Of a stretch of 42,214 nucleotides of DNA, positions 3,488 through 26,785 are shown piece after piece. How positions within the stretch are numbered: position 1 is the first letter of the stretch; every line of letters starts with the position of its first letter. The position numbers were made by a program, and so were the translations under genes. The stretch lies in the IMG/VR virus record IMGVR_UViG_3300044837_000064, positions 1 to 42,214 of that record; one strand, given 5' to 3'. The stretch comes from a virus. The notes below the pieces were generated by a model that was not told the DNA's origin, ran no database searches, and was given only the letters and a program-made list of their open reading frames with translations.

Positions 3488-3873
3488 AGTCCAACCACCA
3501 ATACGGGCTTATCGAGCCGCAGTTTCTCGCCCCGGATACGATGAAAATGCGTCGTGCCGTAGTGCCAAGGCTGCGGCGGGTCATAGCTCAGGTCATAGGT
3601 CCAGAAGCGATCTTCTGTCCCGGCATCCATGTGCGTGCCCACGATGTAGAAGTGCACCCACTGGCGCAGTGTCTTTCCGGCCGCCTCGGCTTCGATCTCA
3701 AAATAGACGCGTTGGCCCGGCCAAAATTCAGGGCCATTCTTCGCGGCCTGCACAAGCCAGCGCCAACCGTCGTTGTTATCGAGTAGGCCCGCCTCACACT
3801 CGAAGGCGCATTTCTGCACCTGCTCAATGGCGGACTTCATCGACCAATTTTTTACGGGCAGTTTGTCAGTCAC
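3484..3873 (-). CDS. Hypothetical protein, GTG start
   Basis: A protein of 129 aa from a GTG at 3873 (VTDKLPVKNW). The GTG overlaps the TGA of the upstream gene (GTGA) and has AAGGGAG about 8 bp upstream, which decides the start over the longer open frame to 4035. It is rich in aromatics (WRWLVQAAKNGPEFWPGQRVYFEIE) and resembles a small beta-sandwich. No function is recognised. Confidence 0.7.
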   Translation of the reverse strand: MTDKLPVKNWSMKSAIEQVQKCAFECEAGLLDNNDGWRWLVQAAKNGPEFWPGQRVYFEIEAEAAGKTLRQWVHFYIVGTHMDAGTEDRFWTYDLSYDPPQPWHYGTTHFHRIRGEKLRLDKPVLVVGL

Positions 3874-4067
3874 TTTCCATCTCCCTTCAAAACTTCCGAA
3901 CCCGCCATCCTGTAATGCGTGACGGTGTGCGGGCTGCCCAGCATGTAGGGCGCAAAATCGATTTTGAATTGCTCGTACTCGACCATCGTCCCGGGCCAGA
4001 CCCATTGGCCGTTTTGAAGCTCGGTGAACCACCACACGCGGCGGCGTTTCCAGGTCGGTTTTTCCAT
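3870..4067 (-). CDS. Small hypothetical protein
   Basis: A protein of 65 aa starting MEKPTWKRRRVWWFTEL. The ATG shares a base with the stop of the 25-aa membrane peptide gene upstream (TGATG), and its stop overlaps the next GTG start. Basic and aromatic N-terminus; no recognised domain. Confidence 0.65.
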   Translation of the reverse strand: MEKPTWKRRRVWWFTELQNGQWVWPGTMVEYEQFKIDFAPYMLGSPHTVTHYRMAGSEVLKGDGK

Positions 4068-4144
4068 CACATCACCACCAGCGCGTAGAGTGCCGCCACG
4101 ATAATTCCAGGAACGACCCACGGCGCTAATTCGAAAATGCTCAC
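4067..4144 (-). CDS. 25-aa membrane peptide
   Basis: GTG start at 4144 overlapping the HNH gene stop (GTGA). The product reads VSIFELAPWVVPGIIVAALY then ALVVM and is almost entirely one transmembrane helix. Its TGA overlaps the next ATG. Perfect start and stop overlaps on both sides make it a convincing gene despite its size. Role unknown; an inner-membrane location is inferred. Confidence 0.6.
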   Translation of the reverse strand: MSIFELAPWVVPGIIVAALYALVVM

Positions 4145-4494
4145 GGCATCCACCTGTCGATCGGACGGGAGGCGGTTCGCTGCGGAGATCGTTTTTGGAA
4201 TCCCGCCGACTGGATCTTCGGCTTTTCGTTCTTGATGCCCTGGTGCTTGTCGCTGATGCGCTTGACCTTCGCGATTAACGGAACGTCGTGCTTGCGGGTT
4301 TTCTCGTTGTGGCAGGCGTGGCAGAGCACCTTGCAGTTATCCAGGGTCGGTTCGCCACCAAGGCCGTCTGCAATGTCGTGGTCGAAATGGAATTTGTGGC
4401 CGAACAGCGCGCCACAGGTTGCGGCCTCGCACTTGCCGGCAGCCCGGCGTAGTGCATCGCGTTTTACCTGTTTGGGGAATTCACGCCGGCTCAT
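4141..4494 (-). CDS. HNH endonuclease
   Basis: A protein of 117 aa. HFDHDIADGLGGEPTLDNC followed by CHACHNEKT (about residues 36-66) is a typical HNH motif: the DH pair and NC...H..CH residues form the metal-binding beta-beta-alpha active site. CEAATC near residue 22 may form a second half of the zinc site. The basic tail probably contacts DNA. It sits beside NinB, exonuclease and Erf, so a role in recombination or DNA processing is likely. It overlaps ninB by 14 bp. Confidence 0.85.
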   Translation of the reverse strand: MSRREFPKQVKRDALRRAAGKCEAATCGALFGHKFHFDHDIADGLGGEPTLDNCKVLCHACHNEKTRKHDVPLIAKVKRISDKHQGIKNEKPKIQSAGFQKRSPQRTASRPIDRWMP

Positions 4495-4867
4495 GAAATA
4501 CCACTCCATGATTGGCGCCGAAGGCTGCGATGATTTCCAGCAAATCTGAAAATTCGGCCTTCGATAAATCGGATGAAGATCGGCCCAGACTGACAAACCC
4601 GTTTCCGTCAATATTGGGAACCATGCGGACTTCACGCTTGAGGGCGTCAAGGAACAGCAGTTTCCAGTCATCGGGTGATAACTTGATGCCGTGCCAAGGA
4701 AGCTGCGTTGCGATATCCGTGAGACTTGCCCAGAGTTTTGAATTTTGGTCGGTCGTTCGCTTGGCCTGCTTGAACTCGAGGCGCGTCCCTGCCGGCGCCT
4801 GCTCAACCCAACGGGCTGCGCGGAGACGGTCGCTAGGAGAACTGAGGACGAGGGCTGCCCGGCTCAT
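4481..4867 (-). CDS. ninB: NinB-like recombination protein
   Basis: A protein of 128 aa, a typical length for NinB (PF05772). Diagnostic segments are KRTTDQNSKLWASLTDIA, WHGIKLSPDDWKLLFLDALK and the C-terminal EFSDLLEIIAAFGANHGVVF. In lambda, NinB (Orf) binds ssDNA/SSB and substitutes for RecFOR in recombination. Here it follows the exonuclease and Erf genes in the same operon, as expected of a phage recombination module. Confidence 0.9.
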   Translation of the reverse strand: MSRAALVLSSPSDRLRAARWVEQAPAGTRLEFKQAKRTTDQNSKLWASLTDIATQLPWHGIKLSPDDWKLLFLDALKREVRMVPNIDGNGFVSLGRSSSDLSKAEFSDLLEIIAAFGANHGVVFHEPA

Positions 4868-5493
4868 GCGGCTTCCTTCTCGCCATAGAGGCTGTTGAGC
4901 TGCGAAAGCTTCACGGCCAGTTCCAGGAGAAAGCCGGCGATCTCGGATTCCAGTTCCTTGATACGCGTGTCGTCGCGGGGCACGCGCTTGATGAATAAGC
5001 GCATGTTCTCCGGCATCCGCGGATCGTAGGAAACAAAGTCACAATAGCTCCGACCCGTGCAGGCCATCTGGAATTGCATCTGGGAATCGTATTTGGATGG
5101 GACGGCCTGACCGAGAAGCGTTTCCAAATGCGTTGCCGTATTCGGGCACTTGATCTCGACCAGACCATCCCCGCCGACCAGACCGTCCGGGGAGCATCCG
5201 GCTTGGTCGATCTTGGGATGGGGGACGAACGCGACTTCCTCGACCGTCACGCCCTGATAAAACTCATAAGCGGCGCGGGCCTCGGGCTCGGTCTCGGTGC
5301 CGTGTTGCATCGCTGCGTTGGTGTAGGATTCCGCAACCGTGCCCGTCAGGCGCTCGGCAATGAGCTGGGCGGCGTAGTTCGCCCGGCCGGCGCTGTATCC
5401 GCTCTTGGTCTTGGCTACCACGTCAGCAACGCGGGAGGCGGTCACCTTGCCGAGACGCAAGGCTTTCCATTCGTCTGATCCCTGGATAATCAT
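4864..5493 (-). CDS. YqaJ-type viral recombinase (lambda-exonuclease-like)
   Basis: A protein of 209 aa. The N-terminus QGSDEWKALRLGKVTASR, then H64-G-T-E-T-E, GCSPDGL with D103 and the VEIKCP box with E113-x-K115 are the PD-(D/E)xK core of YqaJ/lambda Exo nucleases (PF09588). Such enzymes resect dsDNA 5' to 3' to give a tail for the annealing protein, here the adjacent Erf homologue. A C-terminal helix (RIKELESEIAGFLLELAVKL) follows the catalytic core. It overlaps both neighbours by 4 bp. Confidence 0.92.
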   Translation of the reverse strand: MIIQGSDEWKALRLGKVTASRVADVVAKTKSGYSAGRANYAAQLIAERLTGTVAESYTNAAMQHGTETEPEARAAYEFYQGVTVEEVAFVPHPKIDQAGCSPDGLVGGDGLVEIKCPNTATHLETLLGQAVPSKYDSQMQFQMACTGRSYCDFVSYDPRMPENMRLFIKRVPRDDTRIKELESEIAGFLLELAVKLSQLNSLYGEKEAA

Positions 5494-6209
5494 TTTGCCC
5501 TCTTTTTGTTGAGTGCGGCGACGGCGCGCGGGAAGTCTTTCGCCGAAATGTCTGCGAAGCTTTCAACCCGGAAATATTTGCAGAAGGCTTCCTTGTCGGC
5601 GGAAACTTCGTCGCAAAGTGTGACCAGTTCCTCGACCTGTTCGAGCGTGATTGCCCCGCCAGCGCTCGCCATCTTCCCGTCATCGTCATTCGACGCGGCG
5701 AGGCCCAAAGCCTGCACAAGCGAGTAGCGCTGCAAATACGTCAGCGTCGATCCGAGGCTGTGGATGGGGCTTTTGTTGCCGCTGCTGTCGGGCGGGCCAG
5801 TAAGGGTGTTTTCCTCGCTGTGGCCGTGACCGAACAGAACGCAAGTGACCGTGATGGCCTTTTCCGTCTGCACCGTGCGGAAGCGGTAGGAGAGGCCGTG
5901 CCTGCCCAGGATCGGATCAACAACGGCAGCGATGGCGGCAAAGTCCGCATATTTCTTATCGTTGTGGCCTTTGGCGTTGCGCGCGATCGGGGGAATCTGG
6001 CCCTTCGCTGCGGCAACGGCTTCGTCAAAAGCCTTGCGGGCTTGCTTGACTTCGGCCTTGTCGCGCATGTCCATCAGCTTCAACATCTTGTCCATATCGA
6101 CGGACGGATCACGCGCGGCGCGCTCGATCATGTGAAGGACGGCGGCGGTTTCGGAACGATCAACCGGGATCGGCTCGGACGGGCCTTGAATGGTGAGGGG
6201 CTGGTTCAT
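5490..6209 (-). CDS. erf: Erf-family ssDNA-annealing protein
   Basis: A protein of 239 aa. HNDKKYADFAAIAAVVDPIL, GLSYRFRT, and SLGSTLTYLQRYSLVQALG followed by NDDDG are the conserved blocks of the P22 Erf family (PF04404). These proteins anneal complementary single strands, circularising phage DNA and driving recombination independently of RecA. The C-terminal 60 residues form the usual small oligomer-associated domain. It pairs with the downstream YqaJ nuclease. Confidence 0.92.
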   Translation of the reverse strand: MNQPLTIQGPSEPIPVDRSETAAVLHMIERAARDPSVDMDKMLKLMDMRDKAEVKQARKAFDEAVAAAKGQIPPIARNAKGHNDKKYADFAAIAAVVDPILGRHGLSYRFRTVQTEKAITVTCVLFGHGHSEENTLTGPPDSSGNKSPIHSLGSTLTYLQRYSLVQALGLAASNDDDGKMASAGGAITLEQVEELVTLCDEVSADKEAFCKYFRVESFADISAKDFPRAVAALNKKRAK

Positions 6210-7693: not shown

Positions 7694-8199
7694 CCGAACG
7701 CAAGTTCAATGCGGATGTATCGGTAGAACAATTGCGGGCTTTGCTCGAATATGACCCCTCTACAGGGATATTGCGATGGAAAGTTACTCGCGGCGGATCG
7801 GCGCGTTGCGGCGACACTGCGGGCGTTACGCAAGCCACTGGCTACGTCGTTATTATGGTTTCCGGGAAAAACTATCTCGCCCATAGGCTTGCATGGGCCA
7901 TTGTTCATGGCGAGTGGCCTACAATCTACATCGACCATATCGACGGTGACAGGGCCAACAACCGCATCGCCAATTTTCGTCTGGCAACTAGAGCGCAGAA
8001 TGGTCGGAATAAGCCCGCTCGCGGATACTCGTTCGTCCCGAAGCATCGAAGATATAGAGCGGTCATCCAAGTTAACGGGAAAAATATACATCTTGGCTCG
8101 TTCATGGAGCCGGCGAAGGCACATGCTGCTTATCTCGCGGCCACGAAAAGATATTTTGGCGACTTCAGCGTCACCAACCGCACGGCGGAATTCGTATGA
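7690..8199 (+). CDS. HNH endonuclease with AP2 DNA-binding domain
   Basis: A protein of 169 aa. HRLAWAIVHGEWP (65-77) and IDHIDGDRANNRIANFR (81-97) are an HNH_3 motif. Residues 118-158 (KHRRYRAVIQVNGKNIHLG then AYLAATKRYFG) form an AP2 domain. This pairing is typical of free-standing homing-type endonucleases in phages. It overlaps cro by 4 bp, an unusual position in the immunity region, so it may have been captured there or act in phage competition. Confidence 0.9.
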   Translation: MTERKFNADVSVEQLRALLEYDPSTGILRWKVTRGGSARCGDTAGVTQATGYVVIMVSGKNYLAHRLAWAIVHGEWPTIYIDHIDGDRANNRIANFRLATRAQNGRNKPARGYSFVPKHRRYRAVIQVNGKNIHLGSFMEPAKAHAAYLAATKRYFGDFSVTNRTAEFV

Positions 8200-8441
8200 G
8201 CCGCAACCATTTCATTCCAGAGGAATATTTTATCTCTTTCGTCGCATCGCGGCGGGAATATTCAGGTTCCGTTGATAGCGCGACTCTCGACGGAACGGCG
8301 GCGACTGCTGGATTATGGCCCCGGCTCCAGACGGTCGCCGCCGATAATTCACTGCGGCAATCCGAACGCGCCACACCAGGCGAGCAGCGCAAGCACCGCC
8401 AGCAAGACCATCGCAATCCAACGCATGGAGGAATCCTGTGA
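8196..8441 (+). CDS. Hypothetical protein
   Basis: A protein of 81 aa starting MSRNHFIPEEYFISF inside the stop of the HNH gene (ATGA). Its second half is polar and of low complexity, without recognisable structure, and the antisense strand has a short hydrophobic frame (8349..8426). The start and stop overlaps (ATGA and GTGA) favour it being translated, but the coding evidence is modest. Confidence 0.5.
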   Translation: MSRNHFIPEEYFISFVASRREYSGSVDSATLDGTAATAGLWPRLQTVAADNSLRQSERATPGEQRKHRQQDHRNPTHGGIL

Positions 8442-8701
8442 GCCATTGGAGGACGACCCGCGCGGCGTCGGGGGCACAACCACCGCGCGGGCCTTACATC
8501 GCGCAAAGAACGCCGCGCGAATACGTGAATAGTTATTTCCCTCCGGGCTCAATTCTTACCGGCGACCCTTCGCTCGAAAGCCGCGATGTCTCTGACGCGC
8601 TTCGCGACGTAATCGCTGTGGGCTTTGCGTTTCTGTTCATCAGTTCGGTTGGCGTCGGGTTTGCCTTCGCCATGTTCTGTCTCTTGTTCGTCGGGCTTTG
8701 A
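8438..8701 (+). CDS. Membrane protein, GTG start
   Basis: A protein of 87 aa from a GTG at 8438 that overlaps the previous stop and has GGAGGA 6 bp upstream, which decides the start. Residues 59-87 (VIAVGFAFLFISSVGVGFAF then AMFCLLFVGL) form one or two transmembrane helices; the N-terminal part is basic and cytoplasmic by charge. An early membrane protein of this kind could affect superinfection or host physiology, but that is conjecture. Confidence 0.65.
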   Translation: MSHWRTTRAASGAQPPRGPYIAQRTPREYVNSYFPPGSILTGDPSLESRDVSDALRDVIAVGFAFLFISSVGVGFAFAMFCLLFVGL

Positions 8702-13734: not shown

Positions 13735-14004
13735 ATGGCTGCCGGAGGACGTAGGCCCGGCGCAGGACGCCCCAAGGGCGCTGCCAATAAGCTAAACGAC
13801 CAAGCGCGGGCACAGGCGTTGGAGGGAGGCATATCACCTCTGGACTACCTCCTAGGCGTTTTGCGAGATGGGCAGTTAGACCGAGAAACCAGGATGGATG
13901 CAGCCAAGGCCGCGGCGCCTTACGTGCACGCGAGGCTGGCTGCCGTCGAGCATTCCGGCGACAAAGACAAGCCGATTGCTCATACGGTTTCATGGGCCGA
14001 ATAA
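13735..14004 (+). CDS. terS: Terminase small subunit
   Basis: A protein of 89 aa. It opens with GGRRPGAGRPKGAANKLNDQ, the basic GAGRPKG DNA-binding segment typical of phage small terminases, then a helical region SPLDYLLGVLRDG...RMDAAKAAAPYVHARLA. TerS recognises phage DNA for packaging and feeds it to TerL. It overlaps terL by 13 bp. Short for the class but comparable to related phages. Confidence 0.82.
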   Translation: MAAGGRRPGAGRPKGAANKLNDQARAQALEGGISPLDYLLGVLRDGQLDRETRMDAAKAAAPYVHARLAAVEHSGDKDKPIAHTVSWAE

Positions 14005-15302
14005 TAATCCCGTACACGCCGCGGGAAGTCTTTAGGCCATTCCATAACCGAACCGAGCGCTTTGCCATCGGGGTGGCGCATCGCCGTTGTGGCAAGACCG
14101 TTGCCTGCATCAACGACAAGATCAAGCGAGCAATCCTGAGCCCGAAGGAAATGTACCGCGCCGGGTACATCGCGCCGTTCCTGAAGCAGGCCAAGGACGT
14201 GGCCTGGGAATATCTGAAGCGATACTCAAGGCCGGTATGGGGAGCGAGTCCGAATGAAAGCGAACTCTTCGTCACGCTCCTTGGAGGCCAGCGCATCCGC
14301 ATCTACGGTGCTGACAATGCTGACGCCCTCCGAGGCGGCTATTTTGATGACGTCACCCTTGATGAATACGCAGACATGGCCCCTAGCGTTTGGGGTTCCA
14401 TCATTCGGCCCATGCTGGCTGATCGGCAAGGCTCAGCGACGTTCATTGGAACGCCAAAAGGCCGGAACAGCTTCCACGAACTCTACGAGCGGGCAGCGGG
14501 TGATGATGACTGGTTCCGGTTCATGCTGCGAGCCAGCGAAACCGGGCTGCTAGCCGAGAGCGAATTAGCCGCCGCCCGGCAGGACATGACGCCGGAGCAG
14601 TTCGACCAAGAGTTCGAGTGCAGCTTCGATGCCGCGATCTTGGGCGCCTATTACGGCAAGGACATTGCCGAGCTGGAGCGTAAAGGCAGGATTGTTGAGG
14701 TTGAGCCGATTGATGCGCCCGTGCATACGGCATGGGACCTGGGTATCGGGGATTCAACCGCCATCTGGTTTTGGCAGGCGGTCGAGAACGAGATCAGGAT
14801 CATCGACCATTACGAGAACCACGGGCATGCCATCCCGCATTACGTCGCCGAGATCGAGGCGAGGGGATATTCCAAGGGGACTGACTACGTTCCCCACGAC
14901 GCCAAGGTGCGAAGCCTGGAGACGGGCCGCACCCGGATTGAGACGCTGATAGGCCTCGGTCGCAAGCCGATGCTGGTAGCCAACCACAAGATCATGGACG
15001 GTATCAACGCCGCGCGGCTGACAATGCCGCGGATATGGATCGACGCCGGCAGGTGTAAGGACGGCATTGAGGCGCTGAGACAATACCGCGCTGACTTTGA
15101 CGAGAAGACGCGGGCCTTCAAGGACACACCGAAGCACGATTGGACCTCTCACACGGCGGATGCGTTCCGGTATCTCTGCATGGCGTGGCGGGAGCAGGCC
15201 AAGCCGGAAGAGAAGCCTGACGTACCGCCCGTGAAGGCCATCACCGATTACAAGGTTGAAGAAATGTGGAAGTTCAACAAACGGCCGAGGGATCGCGTCT
15301 AA
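13992..15302 (+). CDS. terL: Terminase large subunit
   Basis: A protein of 436 aa. Walker A AHRRCGKT (29-36), Walker B YFDDVTLDEYAD (117-128) with catalytic acids D124-E125, and coupling motif FIGTPKG (151-157) make up the packaging ATPase. The C-terminal RNase H-like nuclease shows D249 in AWDLGIGDST, D303 in VPHDAK and D390 in SHTADAFRY. Together they translocate and cut phage DNA at the portal. The redundant, permuted ends of this sequence fit headful packaging. Confidence 0.96.
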   Translation: MGRIIIPYTPREVFRPFHNRTERFAIGVAHRRCGKTVACINDKIKRAILSPKEMYRAGYIAPFLKQAKDVAWEYLKRYSRPVWGASPNESELFVTLLGGQRIRIYGADNADALRGGYFDDVTLDEYADMAPSVWGSIIRPMLADRQGSATFIGTPKGRNSFHELYERAAGDDDWFRFMLRASETGLLAESELAAARQDMTPEQFDQEFECSFDAAILGAYYGKDIAELERKGRIVEVEPIDAPVHTAWDLGIGDSTAIWFWQAVENEIRIIDHYENHGHAIPHYVAEIEARGYSKGTDYVPHDAKVRSLETGRTRIETLIGLGRKPMLVANHKIMDGINAARLTMPRIWIDAGRCKDGIEALRQYRADFDEKTRAFKDTPKHDWTSHTADAFRYLCMAWREQAKPEEKPDVPPVKAITDYKVEEMWKFNKRPRDRV

Positions 15303-16856
15303 GTGACCGATGACGACGCCAAGCCCAAGGATCAGCAGGATGCCGAAGAGAAGGCCCGCCGCTGGCTGAGGGTCATCGACACCTACGACCGCGAGTTCAA
15401 GCCGTGGCACACCCGCTGCGAGAAGATCATCAAGATTTACACGGAGAAGCGCCGCACGGAGGGAACTGAGGTTCGCCGCATGTCGCTGCTGTGGTCGAAT
15501 GTCTCGGTCCTTCAGCCTGCGATCTACGCCAAGATGCCCGAGCCGAACGTAACGCGGAGATTCAAGGATGATGACCCTGTGGCTCGGACTGCCTCGGAAA
15601 TGGTGGAGCGGGCTATTCACTATAGCTTTGATGATGCTGACTTTGACGGCGTCATGCGTGGTGTTCGCGACGACTTTCTGCTTGTCGCTCGCGGTACTGC
15701 TTGGGTTCGTTACGATGCTGAGTTTTCGCCGCTTATGGGCGACGATGACAAGCCGCTGAACAAGGAAGGCGCCCCGCTGAACGACGGCGAGGAAGCCGGC
15801 GAGCAATTGGAAGGCGAGCATGTCTGTTGGGATTACGTTAATTGGCGCGATTTTGGCCATAATGTCGCGCGCACTTGGCAGGAAGTAACGACCGTCTGGC
15901 GCAAGGTCTATATGGATCGGGCACAGGGCAACAAGCGGTTTGGCGAGAAGAAGTTCAAATCCGTTGAGCTTGATCACAAGATCGGGGACGATGCCGAGAC
16001 CCGCAACACGGAAAGCCAGCAGCCGGCCAAGGCGACCCTTTACGAGATCTGGGATAAGACCTCGAACAAGGTGATCTTCCTTGCCAAGGGCGCCAAGGAG
16101 CTATTGGAAGAGACCGATCCTTATTTGAATTTCAAGGACTTCTTCCCGTGCCCCAAGCCGGTCTATGGCACGCTGCAGACTTCCAGCCTCGTGCCCGTGC
16201 CGGACTACGTGTTCTACCAGGATCAGCTCGAGGAAATTGACGACCTCACCGCCCGCATTGGGGCGTTGCTGGATCAATTGAAGGTGGCGGGTTTCTATCC
16301 GGCCAGTGCGTCCGATAGTTCGGAGGCCATCCAGCAGATCGCCATGAAGGGTGTCGAGAACGTCCTGATCCCGATACCGAACTGGAACCAGTTCAAGGAA
16401 GGCGGGGGCGCTGCCGGCATGATCGAGTGGTGGCCGGTCGATCAGGTCATCAAGGTTCTGGAGGGTTCGTTCACGGCCCGCAAGCAGTTGATTGATGACG
16501 TGTACCAGATCACGGGCATTTCTGACATCATGCGGGGCGAGGGCGAGAAGGAAGAAACCGCGACCGCGCAGAAGATCAAGAGCCAGTGGGGATCGGTTCG
16601 TATTCGCGAACGTCAGGCCGAGATGGCGGCGTTTGCCAAGCAGGCGGCGCGGCTCACGGCCGAGATTATTTCCGAGCAGTTCCAGCCGCAAACGCTGATG
16701 GACATGACCAACATGAATCTGCCTAGCGATGCCGAGATACAGGCGCAGGCGTTGCAGCAGCAGATTGCGGCCATGAGGGCGCAGGCGCAACAGCAGGCGA
16801 TCCCCAACGGGGGGCCTCCGATGGGTGGCCAGCCGCAGCAACCGGGTGCGATGTGA
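15303..16856 (+). CDS. Portal protein, main body
   Basis: A protein of 517 aa from a GTG immediately after the terL stop. LLWSNVSVLQPAIYAKMPEP, ERAIHYSFDDADFDGVMRGV and DDFLLVARGTAWVRYDAEF are conserved in the large portals of short-tailed phages, as is GISDIMRGEGEKEETATAQK further on. It forms the dodecameric DNA channel at one capsid vertex. Relatives are longer, ending with a region that here is encoded by the next gene, so the portal is split. The Gln-rich C-terminus ends at a GTGA overlap. Confidence 0.9.
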   Translation: MTDDDAKPKDQQDAEEKARRWLRVIDTYDREFKPWHTRCEKIIKIYTEKRRTEGTEVRRMSLLWSNVSVLQPAIYAKMPEPNVTRRFKDDDPVARTASEMVERAIHYSFDDADFDGVMRGVRDDFLLVARGTAWVRYDAEFSPLMGDDDKPLNKEGAPLNDGEEAGEQLEGEHVCWDYVNWRDFGHNVARTWQEVTTVWRKVYMDRAQGNKRFGEKKFKSVELDHKIGDDAETRNTESQQPAKATLYEIWDKTSNKVIFLAKGAKELLEETDPYLNFKDFFPCPKPVYGTLQTSSLVPVPDYVFYQDQLEEIDDLTARIGALLDQLKVAGFYPASASDSSEAIQQIAMKGVENVLIPIPNWNQFKEGGGAAGMIEWWPVDQVIKVLEGSFTARKQLIDDVYQITGISDIMRGEGEKEETATAQKIKSQWGSVRIRERQAEMAAFAKQAARLTAEIISEQFQPQTLMDMTNMNLPSDAEIQAQALQQQIAAMRAQAQQQAIPNGGPPMGGQPQQPGAM

Positions 16857-17563
16857 TCCAGTCCCCGCCGGCCCAAGGCCAACCGATCCCGCAGGCTCCG
16901 CAAGGGCCGCCGCAGGTGACGATAGATCAGGTTGTCAAACTGCTCCGCGACGACCGGATGCGCGGCTTTCGGATCGATATCGAAACTGACAGTTTGGTCG
17001 AATCCGATCAGCAGGCAGAGAAGGCCGCGGCGAACGAGTTGATCCAGTCGATCGGCGGGTTTTTCAAGGAGTTCGGGCCGATCGTTGCCCAGATGCCACC
17101 CTTGGCGCCGATGGCAAGCCAACTGCTTTGCTTCGCGCTGCGGCGTTACAAGGTCGGCGCCGAGCTGGAAGAGATTGTCGAAAAATCCATGACCGAGGTG
17201 GTGCAGCGGTTGGAAAACCCGCCGCCGCCCCAGCCTAACCCGGTTGAGCAGGCCAAGACGGAACAGGCGCAGATCAAGGCCCAGGCTGAAGGCCAAAAGA
17301 GCCAGATGGCAGGCCAGATCGCGCAGATGGAAGCGCAGTTCAAACAGCAAGAGATGGCGATGCAGGCGCAGGCTGATCAGCAGCGGATGGCGATGGAAGC
17401 CCAGGCGCAGAAAATGGACATGCTGATCAAGATGCTGGAGCACCAGCAGACGGTCAAAGAGCACCACCTGACTGCCCAGCAGACCGAACGCTCGCACGAA
17501 CTGAATATGGAAGTCGCGGAACACAAGGCCAAAGAGGCCACGAAACCAAAGGCTGACACATGA
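16853..17563 (+). CDS. Portal C-terminal part encoded separately
   Basis: A protein of 236 aa from a GTG overlapping the portal stop (GTGA). VKLLRDDRMRGFRIDIETDS then SDQQAEKAAANELIQSIGGF continues the C-terminal part of single-chain portals of this type as I know them (R.YRIDIETDST..D.QAEK). The second half is a Gln/Met-rich coiled coil (about 130-230) resembling a P22-like barrel. The frame is open upstream of the GTG, so a -1 frameshift is conceivable, but no good slippery heptamer is visible; coupled re-initiation is simpler. Confidence 0.75.
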   Translation: MIQSPPAQGQPIPQAPQGPPQVTIDQVVKLLRDDRMRGFRIDIETDSLVESDQQAEKAAANELIQSIGGFFKEFGPIVAQMPPLAPMASQLLCFALRRYKVGAELEEIVEKSMTEVVQRLENPPPPQPNPVEQAKTEQAQIKAQAEGQKSQMAGQIAQMEAQFKQQEMAMQAQADQQRMAMEAQAQKMDMLIKMLEHQQTVKEHHLTAQQTERSHELNMEVAEHKAKEATKPKADT

Positions 17564-17899: not shown

Positions 17900-18061
17900 A
17901 TGGCCGATCTTTCGAGACTGAATGCCGCCGTTGCTGACCTGTCGGCCAAGGTGGATGCGATGAATGCCAAGCCCGCGCCGGTTCCTCCGGTTGACCAGCA
18001 GTCGGAGGTAGACGCGGTCACGTCTGCGGTCGAGGCCATCGCGGCGAAGATCCCCACGTAA
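17900..18061 (+). CDS. Short coiled-coil protein
   Basis: A protein of 53 aa from the ATG at 17900, chosen because CAGGAG lies 7 bp upstream; a longer form from 17849 (MSEHHDLRTIIRNQEKI) would overlap the previous gene. LSRLNAAVADLSAKVDAMNA is a heptad coiled coil. Such short trimeric coils often accompany fibre or decoration proteins. Its stop overlaps the next start (TAATGG). Confidence 0.6.
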   Translation: MADLSRLNAAVADLSAKVDAMNAKPAPVPPVDQQSEVDAVTSAVEAIAAKIPT

Positions 18062-18387
18062 TGGCCTTGCGTCTCTGTCGAGCCTGCGAAGGCTGGCATG
18101 ACCTTAACGCAGCGTGGCCCCGTGAGTGCGCCAATCACTTCAAGCGCACCACGGAAGCCCGCTCCGATCTACCGCGCCCAATGGTCATCTCTGACGATGT
18201 GGACGTGGCAAGCCCGGTGAGCGGGGAACGTTTTACCAGCAAGTCCGAACTGCGCAGGCACTATCAGGCGAACGGCGTTCGGGAACTCGGCAACGATACG
18301 ATCAAGCCGAAAGACAATGACGAAACCGATATCGCCCTTGCGCCGATCGAGCGCGAAGTGGCCCAGGCGTTCAATTCTGTAAGCTAG
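18061..18387 (+). CDS. Conserved phage protein upstream of the scaffold
   Basis: A protein of 108 aa. An N-terminal CRACEGWHD...ECANH segment may bind metal. The middle, DDVDVASPVSGERFTSKSEL then RRHYQANGVRELGND, matches the small protein often encoded just before the scaffold in podoviruses (pattern: published/set of residues SPVSG..I.SR...R.H....V.EVGN). The role is unknown. Confidence 0.7.
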   Translation: MALRLCRACEGWHDLNAAWPRECANHFKRTTEARSDLPRPMVISDDVDVASPVSGERFTSKSELRRHYQANGVRELGNDTIKPKDNDETDIALAPIEREVAQAFNSVS

Positions 18388-19524: not shown

Positions 19525-20493
19525 ATGGCATCGCCCAATCTTGGTGAAATCATCACCACGACGCTGCGAAACCGTACCGGCAAGCCCGCCGACTCGGTAT
19601 CGAAGAACAACGCACTGCTCAACCGTCTCCTGGAAAAGGGCCGGGTGGATACTGCCGATGGTGGCCGCACCATCGTCCAGGAGATCGAATACCAGGAGAA
19701 CGGCACGTTCAAGCGTTACGCCGGCTACGACCTCCTGAACATCGCGCCCTCCGACGTTCTGACCGCTGCCGAATACGACTGGAAACAGGCTGTTGCCGCG
19801 ATTTCCATCTCGGGCCTTGAGCAGATGCAGAATTCCGGCAAGGAAGTGATGATCAAGCTGTTGGCTGCGCGCATCAAGAACGCGCAGAAAACCCTCCGCA
19901 ACAACATCGCCCTCGATTGCTATTCGGACGGCACTGCGGACGGCGGCAAGCAGGTCGGCGGCCTTCAGGCGGCTGTTCCGACCACCAACAACACCGGCAC
20001 GTTCGGCGGTATTCCGCGCGCCTCGTGGGCGTTCTGGCAGAACCAGGCTTACAACGGTCTGAGCAATGGCGGCGTTGCGACCGCGGCAACCAACGTCCAG
20101 AGCTACATGAACCAGCTCTGGTACAAGACCACCCGCGGCGCCGATCATCCTGACCTGATCGTGGCCGACAACACCATGTACGGCTTCTACCATTCGTCGT
20201 TGCAGTCGATCCAGCGCATCACCTCGGACAAGATGGCTCAGGCGGGCTTCACCTCGCTCAAGTACATGAATGCCGACGTGGTTCTGGACGGCGGCTTTGG
20301 CGGCGGTGCGCCGACTTCCACGATGTACTTCCTTAACACGGACTACATCTATCTGCGTCCGCACTCTCAGCGCAATTTCGTCGAAATCGGCGGCGAGCGC
20401 GTCAACCCGAACCAGGATGCACTGGTGAAGCTGTTGGGCTGGATGGGCAATATGACCGTCTCCAACATGTTCCTCCAGGGCGTGCTCACCTAA
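19525..20493 (+). CDS. Major capsid protein
   Basis: A protein of 322 aa, without a visible prodomain. GRTIVQEIEYQENGTFKRYA then GYDLLNIAPSDVLTAAEYDW, and KTTRGADHPDLIVADNTMYG with FVEIGGERVNPNQDALVKLL, belong to a well-represented HK97-fold coat family of podoviruses. A ribosome site AAAGGAG precedes the ATG. It is probably the most abundant virion protein. Confidence 0.9.
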   Translation: MASPNLGEIITTTLRNRTGKPADSVSKNNALLNRLLEKGRVDTADGGRTIVQEIEYQENGTFKRYAGYDLLNIAPSDVLTAAEYDWKQAVAAISISGLEQMQNSGKEVMIKLLAARIKNAQKTLRNNIALDCYSDGTADGGKQVGGLQAAVPTTNNTGTFGGIPRASWAFWQNQAYNGLSNGGVATAATNVQSYMNQLWYKTTRGADHPDLIVADNTMYGFYHSSLQSIQRITSDKMAQAGFTSLKYMNADVVLDGGFGGGAPTSTMYFLNTDYIYLRPHSQRNFVEIGGERVNPNQDALVKLLGWMGNMTVSNMFLQGVLT

Positions 20494-24208: not shown

Positions 24209-24593
24209 GCAAGACAGCGAAGCCGCCAAGCGGTTCGTTGAAACCCGTGAACAGGTAGCCATTTGCGACCCCTATATCGGGTTGATTGTTGAAAATGGTA
24301 ACAAGCAAGTCGGTGCGTTCATTCTCAATGATTACACGCCGGGGCAAAACATCGAAATGTCCGCGGTGATAACCGGGGCGGTCCCGATGCGGGATCTGCG
24401 GGATATCTTCCGGTATTGCTTCGATCGGGTTCGGCGGGTGACGGCGCGAACCTCGGTCAACAACACAAGAACGATCTACATGCTCGGGGTGCTCGGCTTT
24501 AGGCGCGAGGGTCTTTTGCGTGAGTGGTTTCGGGACGGCAGCGATGGCGCGCTGTTCAGCCTCTTAAAGAAAGAGCAGAGAATTTATCGATGA
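24201..24593 (+). CDS. GNAT-like acetyltransferase
   Basis: A protein of 130 aa from a TTG at 24201. EQVAICDPYIGLIVENGNKQ then VGAFILNDYTPGQNIEMSAV and the final TRTIYMLGVLGFRREGLLREWF follow the beta-strand order of GNAT folds, ending with the usual L.FR.EG.LR element. Such genes frequently lie between tail hub and ejection proteins in podoviruses; the substrate is unknown. Overlaps both neighbours. Confidence 0.7.
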   Translation: MVRQDSEAAKRFVETREQVAICDPYIGLIVENGNKQVGAFILNDYTPGQNIEMSAVITGAVPMRDLRDIFRYCFDRVRRVTARTSVNNTRTIYMLGVLGFRREGLLREWFRDGSDGALFSLLKKEQRIYR

Positions 24594-25369
24594 AAAGCTC
24601 TCCGACACCGCCTGATCCATATCAGACCGCGCAAACTCAAAACCAGTTCAACGTCGGCACCGCCAACGCAAATCAGCGCGTTAACATGGTCGATCAATCG
24701 AATCCGTTTGGCAGTCTGGCCTATAACCAGACCGGAACCAACCCGGACGGAACGGCGAAGTTTTCGGCCAACAGTTCGCTCTCGCAGCCGTTGCAAACGG
24801 CCTTGGGCGGCCTGTACGGGAAGGGGGCTCTATCGGGCAATGCGCTCGATCTGTCATACGACGGCACGGCGGGCCGGCTGGATGCGCTTAACAAGGCCCG
24901 GCTCGATCCGCAGTGGCAGCAGAACACGGATAGCCAGGAGTCCAAACTTGCAGCTCAGGGCCTCACGCCTGGGATGCCCGGCTATGACAACGCCATGCGC
25001 GTCTTTAATCAGGGCAAGAACGACGCTTACAACAGCGCAAACCTTGCCGATTACGGGCAGGCGGCGAGTGCGGCACAGGCGGAATATAATTCACCGCTTC
25101 AGACCGCGCAGGGCATCAGCTCGCTCGCCAATGGTGCGCGGGTCAATACGCCGACAACCAATGTGGCCGGAACGAACTACGCGGGCCTTGCGGAGGATGC
25201 CTACAAGCAGCAATCCGCCAACGCGAACGCAGCCAACGGGCAATTGGGCGGCATCTTCGGGAGCATACTCGGCGCGGGGGCTAATCTTGCGACGGGTGGA
25301 GCGTCTGGCATGTTCAGTAAAATGGGAGGCCTGTTCGGCGGCGGATCTCCCAGCGGTTACGGGAAATAA
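24590..25369 (+). CDS. Internal virion protein, small
   Basis: A protein of 259 aa from the ATG at 24590 (ATGA overlap). It begins SSPTPPDPYQTAQTQNQFNV...NPFGSLAYNQTGT, a signature of a common podovirus protein encoded before the ejection genes. The rest is Gln/Asn/Ala-rich and helical, ending in Gly-rich GGIFGSILGAGANLATGGAS that may insert in membrane. A role in DNA ejection is inferred. Confidence 0.7.
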   Translation: MKSSPTPPDPYQTAQTQNQFNVGTANANQRVNMVDQSNPFGSLAYNQTGTNPDGTAKFSANSSLSQPLQTALGGLYGKGALSGNALDLSYDGTAGRLDALNKARLDPQWQQNTDSQESKLAAQGLTPGMPGYDNAMRVFNQGKNDAYNSANLADYGQAASAAQAEYNSPLQTAQGISSLANGARVNTPTTNVAGTNYAGLAEDAYKQQSANANAANGQLGGIFGSILGAGANLATGGASGMFSKMGGLFGGGSPSGYGK

Positions 25370-25372
25370 TCC

Positions 25373-26785
25373 ATGGCCCTGACTGACTATTCGATCGACA
25401 CTTCCGGCTCCCCGCAAGACGTTACGCGCAAGCAGGCGCTTGCCGATGCGTTGATGAAGCAGGGCATGGATAGTTCGCCGGCAGCCGGCGGTAAAAATGG
25501 CGGGTGGGTCACGGCGCTTAACCGCGGGCTGGCGGGAGCATTGGGGGGGTATCAGCGCGGTGCAGCAGCGAACGAGGAACAGACGGGAAGGGATTCAGTT
25601 CGCCAGCAGTTGGCCGCAGCACTATCGGACGATGGCAAGGTCACGCCACAAACGATGATAGGGCTTGCGAGCAACCCGTGGGCTACGCCGGGGCAGACCC
25701 AGGCCGTTACGCATGTAGCGGATATGCAGAACCAGCAGGCGCGGCAGGGTGTAGAGGATCAGCACTGGGGTGCAACGTACCAGCTTCAGAAGGAAGCGGC
25801 GGCGAGGGCTGCGGATAAGACACCTGCCGGGTTTATAGCCGATCCTGCCAATCCGGGCGGTTACAAGCCAATTGCTGGCGGCCCTGCTGACCCGGCCTAT
25901 CTATCGAGCGCCAATGCTGCAAAGGGCTCCGATACGCCAAACAGCGTTAAGGAATACAATTATTATACAAAGACGTTCCAGCCGACGCCGGAAAATCCGC
26001 AACCTATGGACTACGGCACGTTCTCGACCGCAAAGGCCAGGGCTGCGGCCACCAACGTCACCACCAACGTCGATACCAAGGGGCCCGACAAATACGATAC
26101 CGTCATGGGTGAGGGGTTGGCGAAGTCTCACGCCGCCCTTTCGAACGGCGTTGAGGATGCCCAGGCGCGGGCGCGAGACCTCGCCGCGATGCAGGGTGCG
26201 GTCGATGCCATCCAGAAGAACGGCGGCACCACGGGCGGTATGGGGCAGGCTCAGGCCCTGGAAGTTCAAAAGACCATCAATGCCGGCGCCGCGGCGCTCG
26301 GAATGGAACCGCCGATCAATGAAAAGGGCATTGCTGACAAGGAGTTTCTGACCAAGTTCAACCGGCAGATTGCCGGAGCGCAAGCTAAGGGCGCTGTCGG
26401 TTCGCGCGTTACCAACTTCGAAATGTCGAACTACCTGAAGGCAAATCCGGGTCTGGAAATGTCGATCACGGGCAATCAACGTTTGATCGGTATTCAGTCG
26501 CAGATCGAGCAGCGCAATGTTGCAGTTGGCAATGCCATTCGGGAAGCTACTGCGGCTGCGGTCGGTGCCGGCAAGCGCGTCAATCCCTCTGAAATTCAAA
26601 CCATCATCAAAAAATACGACGAAGAGCATCACGTCATGGACCCGGTGACGGGGCAGGACTTGACGCAGAGCTATACGCTTCCCGAGTTTCAGACGGGTGG
26701 AAACAACCCCGCGCTATCAGCCGATCACGGCGCAAACCTGAAGAAAATCCGTGTCTGGAACCCGGCAACCGGGAAGGTTGAATAA
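25373..26785 (+). CDS. Ejection (internal virion) protein
   Basis: A protein of 470 aa. Ala/Gln/Gly-rich, helical and without membrane segments; GGWVTALNRGLAGALGGYQR near the N-terminus is typical of podovirus ejection proteins, and AAAVGAGKRVNPSEIQTIIK closes the helical core. It lies between a small internal protein and a 681-aa protein, the usual three-gene ejection set (as P22 gp7/20/16). The stop overlaps the next ATG (TAATG). Confidence 0.7.
   Translation: MALTDYSIDTSGSPQDVTRKQALADALMKQGMDSSPAAGGKNGGWVTALNRGLAGALGGYQRGAAANEEQTGRDSVRQQLAAALSDDGKVTPQTMIGLASNPWATPGQTQAVTHVADMQNQQARQGVEDQHWGATYQLQKEAAARAADKTPAGFIADPANPGGYKPIAGGPADPAYLSSANAAKGSDTPNSVKEYNYYTKTFQPTPENPQPMDYGTFSTAKARAAATNVTTNVDTKGPDKYDTVMGEGLAKSHAALSNGVEDAQARARDLAAMQGAVDAIQKNGGTTGGMGQAQALEVQKTINAGAAALGMEPPINEKGIADKEFLTKFNRQIAGAQAKGAVGSRVTNFEMSNYLKANPGLEMSITGNQRLIGIQSQIEQRNVAVGNAIREATAAAVGAGKRVNPSEIQTIIKKYDEEHHVMDPVTGQDLTQSYTLPEFQTGGNNPALSADHGANLKKIRVWNPATGKVE

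Follow-up and report, generated by a model that had tools for sequence, protein, structure and literature searches.

The portal of the window, by which we mean the whole stretch analysed (a 42,214-base virus record from an uncultured soil phage), is encoded by two overlapping genes, and their products very probably form one portal together as two translationally coupled chains. The first gene, ORF1, matches positions 11–508 of the 715 in the portal profile phrog_12082 (E 3.8e-174) and the second, ORF2, positions 500–694 (E 3.3e-36); the full profile is covered only by the two jointly. A sequence-only reading had claimed that the portal is split in this way, that a GTGA overlap joins the genes, and that ORF2 carries the C-terminal region of single-chain portals. 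These claims are borne out: both ORFs match the profile at adjoining positions, the overlap is present (Table 1), and ORF2 also aligns to the intact relatives L014 and L009.

The gene order (terminase, portal, head genes) is as expected for a tailed-phage portal. One polypeptide per subunit is the usual state in this family: among 337 fetched loci, 295 had a single gene, 25 were split, 13 had the N part alone, at the edge of a contig, two were mixed and two lacked a portal; many of these loci lie on the same contigs and all were found with seeds from this portal family, and these proportions therefore cannot be read as population frequencies. The window has two ORFs instead, and we class its portal as a two-chain variant of the phrog_12082 family, not as an ordinary single-chain member. 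Neither half had a Pfam match above cut-off.

Table 1. Coordinates of the portal genes, their parts and neighbouring features; positions refer to the window unless a locus is named.
Feature	Position	Strand	Basis or remark
Large terminase subunit gene, directly 5' of the portal genes	13992..15302	+	phrog_2, E 5.7e-36
ORF1, portal core chain, 517 aa	15303..16856	+	GTG start
Gln/Pro-rich extension at the ORF1 C-terminus, following residue 473, the last one aligned structurally	16722..16853	+	model and alignment ranges
Six-G run, suspected indel site, rejected as the source of the split	16809..16814	+	absent in split relatives with the same ORF1 ending
GTGA stop/start overlap of ORF1 and ORF2 (4 bases)	16853..16856	+	sequence
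ORF2, putative crown and barrel chain, 236 aa	16853..17563	+	GTG start
ORF2 part matching L014 helix 485–494 and strand 500–504 (FRIDIET in the window), before the crown	16916..16987	+	alignments and L014 model
ORF2 part matching L014 crown helices 512–582	16988..17233	+	alignments and L014 model; L014 to P22 residue 599
ORF2 part matching L014 long barrel helix 591–693	17234..17560	+	alignments and L014 model
phrog_21669 gene	18061..18387	+	near 3' side of portal in many relatives; homologue between L105 halves
Major head protein gene, downstream of portal	19525..20493	+	phrog_9953, E 9.5e-119
Four-cysteine gene between halves, L004	3946-4137		
Four-cysteine gene between halves, L005	6545-6724		
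Four-cysteine gene between halves, L006	3294-3461		
Four-cysteine gene between halves, L011	6548-6748		

Proposed structural roles of ORF1 and ORF2

A profile search of solved-structure sequences returned chance matches only, and fold comparison was needed instead. The AlphaFold2 model of ORF1 (pLDDT 78.8, pTM 0.71) shows a portal core fold: its residues 9–473 align to solved portals with VIA-align and also with Foldseek, and the 50 structure matches listed are portals or portal/tail complexes (Z 19.4–30.7). The best match is the portal of the cyanopodophage Pan3 (9vyf; Z 30.7, rmsd 6.5, 381 residues), which shares about 10% identity and, unlike that of the window, is one chain. The same core fold is found in P22 gp1, both in the mature portal (5jj3; Z 21.4, rmsd 5.9, 364 residues) and in the procapsid portal (9jga), where ORF1 residues 16–471 align on 6–490 (Z 23.7, rmsd 4.4, 322 residues). 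The P22 portal is a single 725-residue chain, whereas the crown and barrel of the window portal would be the product of a second gene. Two sequence relatives of ORF1 likewise differ from the window in having a single portal gene, each with a terminase gene just upstream: those of Myxococcus phage Mx8 (NC_003085; 32% identity, 1992 bp) and Rhizobium phage RHph_I3_18 (EVC14_004; 40%, 2352 bp).

ORF2 was placed through the model of L014, an intact single-chain relative of 699 residues (pLDDT 79.5). This model has the core to about residue 472, a helix at 485–494, a strand at 500–504, crown-like helices at 512–582 and a barrel helix of about 100 residues at 591–693, and it aligns to residues 6–599 of the P22 procapsid portal (9jga; Z 25.8, rmsd 5.5, 406 residues). 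ORF2 aligns to this C-terminal part of L014 (tblastn, query 24–183) and of L009. The crown helices and long barrel helix are seen in the L014 model and are matched to ORF2 by sequence alignment, which suggests that ORF2 is the counterpart of the region of the intact relative that holds the strand, the crown helices and the barrel helix. If the L014 secondary structure is a guide, the ORF2 strand would pair with the ORF1 sheet.

The chain break falls near the wing-crown hinge, within a Gln/Pro-rich linker; this extension of ORF1 differs among relatives. In PMC5290284, the P22 crown (525–600) is described as flexibly joined to the wing, with a hammer loop at 456–505 and the barrel at 600–725. 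Given that the break lies in the linker at a junction that is flexible in P22, the split would cost little.

We propose that a ribosome finishing ORF1, which would make the wing, stem and clip of the ring core, restarts at the overlapping GTG to make ORF2, which would contribute the crown and barrel as well as the final strand of the wing. These products would then associate without a covalent bond, presumably with twelve of each per ring. We infer this coupled translation, non-covalent association and 1:1 stoichiometry, as well as the presence of both chains in the virion. By eye, no clear Shine-Dalgarno sequence precedes the ORF2 GTG, and the yield of ORF2 might be low; ORF2 could be absent from the ring or substoichiometric.

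Close relatives and a gene between the halves

Seven relatives are split at the same place (L002, L004–L008 and L011). L002 is the Bradyrhizobium phage ppBjS10J-1 (OP596615) and L004–L008 are viral contigs. Their ORF1 proteins are 85–88% identical to that of the window, and that of L011 68–69%. Together with the window they form a clade of eight members on one starred branch of our tree, nested within single-chain portals. The GTGA overlap recurs in L002 and L008, and L007 has TAGTG. In L004, L005, L006 and L011, a gene of 55–66 codons encoding four cysteines lies between the halves and overlaps each by 4 bases. This gene matches phrog_15838 weakly (E 0.003–0.016) in three of the four and has no Pfam match above cut-off. 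Its protein evolves fast and has a possible metal-binding role.

Both halves appear to be under purifying selection. Between the window and its six close relatives (L002, L004–L008), dN/dS is 0.085–0.106 for ORF1 and 0.15–0.25 for ORF2, and L011, which is more distant, gives 0.17 and 0.28; these ratios are rough, since dS is about 0.85–2.1 and near saturation.

A tentative account of how the window clade became split, compatible with two chains forming one portal, is that a small mobile four-cysteine gene was inserted into the portal gene and later lost in the window lineage. Homologous four-cysteine genes occupy the same spot in L011, the outgroup within the clade, and in L004–L006, and the window junction equals that of L006 minus the four-cysteine gene between two TGA overlaps. 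Against this origin, relatives of the gene beyond the clade are scarce (only L110 and L111), and the genes between the halves of L105 and L093/L095 normally sit downstream of an intact portal, which favours duplication rather than insertion. We consider insertion possible and rather doubtful.

Repeated origin of split portals

The 25 split loci represent 14 distinct contigs (window, L002, L004–L008, L011, L023, L028, L060, L093, L095 and L105). Further scans for split lineages, which brought in most of 147 extra loci, gave no new split contig. Among the 14, the C-chain gene starts in an overlap with the stop before it in 13 and directly next to that stop in one, and every junction has a spacing of -4, -1 or 0. 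Such spacings are also common among the other late genes of the window (5 of the 14 listed, with mechanically chosen starts), and close packing is therefore no proof in itself. One late-region ORF (25373–26785, 470 aa) has no PHROG match at E 0.001.

A tree of the N part with 107 rows, 13 of them split, requires at least six changes between one gene and two, and the starred branches alone force six. Seven loci whose match came in two pieces were left out of this tree; restoring them in a second tree of 146 rows again gave six changes. Long branches, L023 and L028 among them, leave some placements unsure. These comparisons indicate that the two-gene portal is a genuine and repeatedly evolved arrangement. 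Since it is rare in the sample and clade-specific, the split may be near-neutral.

Other lineages also carry genes between the halves: two small ORFs in L028, one of 305 aa in L060, three in L093/L095 and one of 96 aa in L105. Nothing between the halves of L028, L060, L093, L095 or L105 matched Rfam above the gathering score, which speaks against a known structured RNA there, for instance a group I intron. The gene in L105 belongs to phrog_21669; in L047, L048, L085, L122 and other relatives, this gene adjoins the 3' end of an intact portal. In L121, L097, L101, L058 and L059, relatives of the first gene between the L093/L095 halves have their start in the final bases of an intact portal gene. 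The phrog_21669 protein, of unknown function, had 94 tblastn matches in the fetched loci, the listed ones downstream of the portal.

Locus L242 retains an intact portal (3769–5808) together with a copy of its last 148 residues 2.75 kb downstream (95% identity). The repeat blocks (5362–5842 and 8110–8587) are 91–92% identical in nucleotides, and the repeat extends into the next gene. Unrelated genes lie between the copies, one of them bearing HELGH, which we take to be a protease-like motif. We regard L242, a single metagenomic contig that could be a chimera, as a likely intermediate: if the first copy lost its 3' half and the second became complete, the layout of L060 and L093 would result. 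In the lineages outside the window clade, recombination probably duplicated the portal 3' half together with the downstream gene, and complementary loss followed.

Many portals of this family finish in a recurring C-terminal tail, PK-x-[IV]-x-RD-x-x-[GT]...G; it is carried by the C-termini of L015, L025, L064 and L102, by the L105 C-chain and by the L060 and L093 N-chains. When the N-tails of L093 and L060 were compared with the C-ends of their nearest single-chain relatives, the scores fell within the shuffle range in four of four comparisons, which argues against simple retention of the tail from those relatives. A scan of the L093 N-tail against open-frame C-ends of 190 loci gave portal chains only as best matches beyond its own copies (18 rows listed), scoring 82 for the L060 N-tail, 74 for the L105 C-chain and 42–63 for single-chain portals; 20 shuffled L093 tails scored 33–48. 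We regard these tail matches as suggestive. The splits of L060 and L093 might share one origin given that their N-tails are alike; a test of the two as one clade with N-part sequences gave a p-AU of 0.009, the group having been named after the tree was seen.

A broader proposal, which we consider unlikely, is that the crown-barrel is a separable subunit joining the ring later, or in other numbers than the core, and that repeated recombination past the portal 3' half split the gene of a portal that is modular at the wing-crown hinge.

Alternatives to a two-chain portal

ORF1 might instead be a working portal alone, with ORF2 a separate and perhaps non-ring protein that is internal or ejection-related. 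Several solved portals are shorter than that of P22 and lack the long barrel. The P22 barrel is moreover mostly unfolded without DNA, according to PMC5290284. Yet by alignment ORF2 keeps the strand and crown and not the barrel alone, it is under apparent purifying selection, and in 14 of 14 split contigs the C-chain gene lies downstream of the core gene within a single string of tightly coupled genes. This alternative is accordingly improbable, and two chains forming one portal is the better reading.

The sequence-only reading had left open whether the subunit is two chains or one made by a -1 frameshift. Two chains is the best reading; the frameshift, which near the end of ORF1 would yield some or all of the portal as a single chain of about 750 aa, lacks a slippery site and is very improbable. 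ORF2 does lie in the -1 frame, which is free of stops over the 42 codons that precede the ORF2 start, a stretch that includes the six-G run, and openness of at least 42 codons upstream in this frame occurs at 14% of 452 ORF1 positions and is thus unremarkable. The corresponding stretch is 43 codons in L002, 64 in L007, 29 in L023 and just 12 in L008. No X_XXY_YYZ heptamer is present in the overlapping open stretch of any of the five direct-overlap loci (window, L002, L007, L008, L023), and the six-G run is not conserved among relatives. The relative frame of the two halves also varies among relatives. Four of the seven close relatives have a separate gene between their halves, and these halves stand in a different relative frame; joining them by a -1 frameshift is impossible there.

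An indel error in the assembly, suspected because a homopolymer run (the six-G run, whose position had been given correctly) lies near the junction in a contig from an uncultured virus record, has a negligible probability and is refuted for the window clade by sequence comparison: the identical split occurs in seven relatives, one of them a named phage with a complete genome, from a host sequenced by both PacBio and Illumina; separate genes lie between the halves in four of them; and past the run ORF1 (GGPPMG...GAM, stop) reads in the homologous frame, aligning with relatives that lack the run. A true frame error looks different, as in L187, where the break lies within the conserved core.

A split portal in a particle-producing lineage

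Portal subunits are regarded as single chains that pass the signal from packed DNA, at barrel and crown, to the terminase side. In the open-licence literature, which set the scope of our search (subscription papers lay outside it), we found no report of a split portal. The named phage ppBjS10J-1 has a two-gene portal with the identical GTGA overlap, and its ORF1 is 87% identical to that of the window. As described in PMC10127595, podophages visible by TEM arise spontaneously in B. japonicum S10J, with a 65 nm capsid and an 18 nm tail; the single enriched region in S10J viral-fraction reads is the prophage ppS10JBj-1 (OP596615), and enriched regions reach 60,000x–150,000x across the strains studied. 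On this evidence from ppBjS10J-1 (PMC10127595), a lineage with a split portal makes DNA-filled, short-tailed particles.

If the portal of such a lineage is indeed built from two chains, peptide continuity at the wing-crown hinge is unnecessary, and the phage would offer a ready system in which to remove, swap or titrate crown and barrel against the core. Repeated fission with neighbour genes between the halves would also mean that a gene can be broken and keep its function even when its product is an obligate ring protein. The word 'portal' is absent from the main text of PMC10127595, and the GenBank annotation of ppBjS10J-1 (24350–26625 of OP596615.1) lists the two portal halves as hypothetical proteins, with the start of the second placed 189 bases downstream of its likely GTG.
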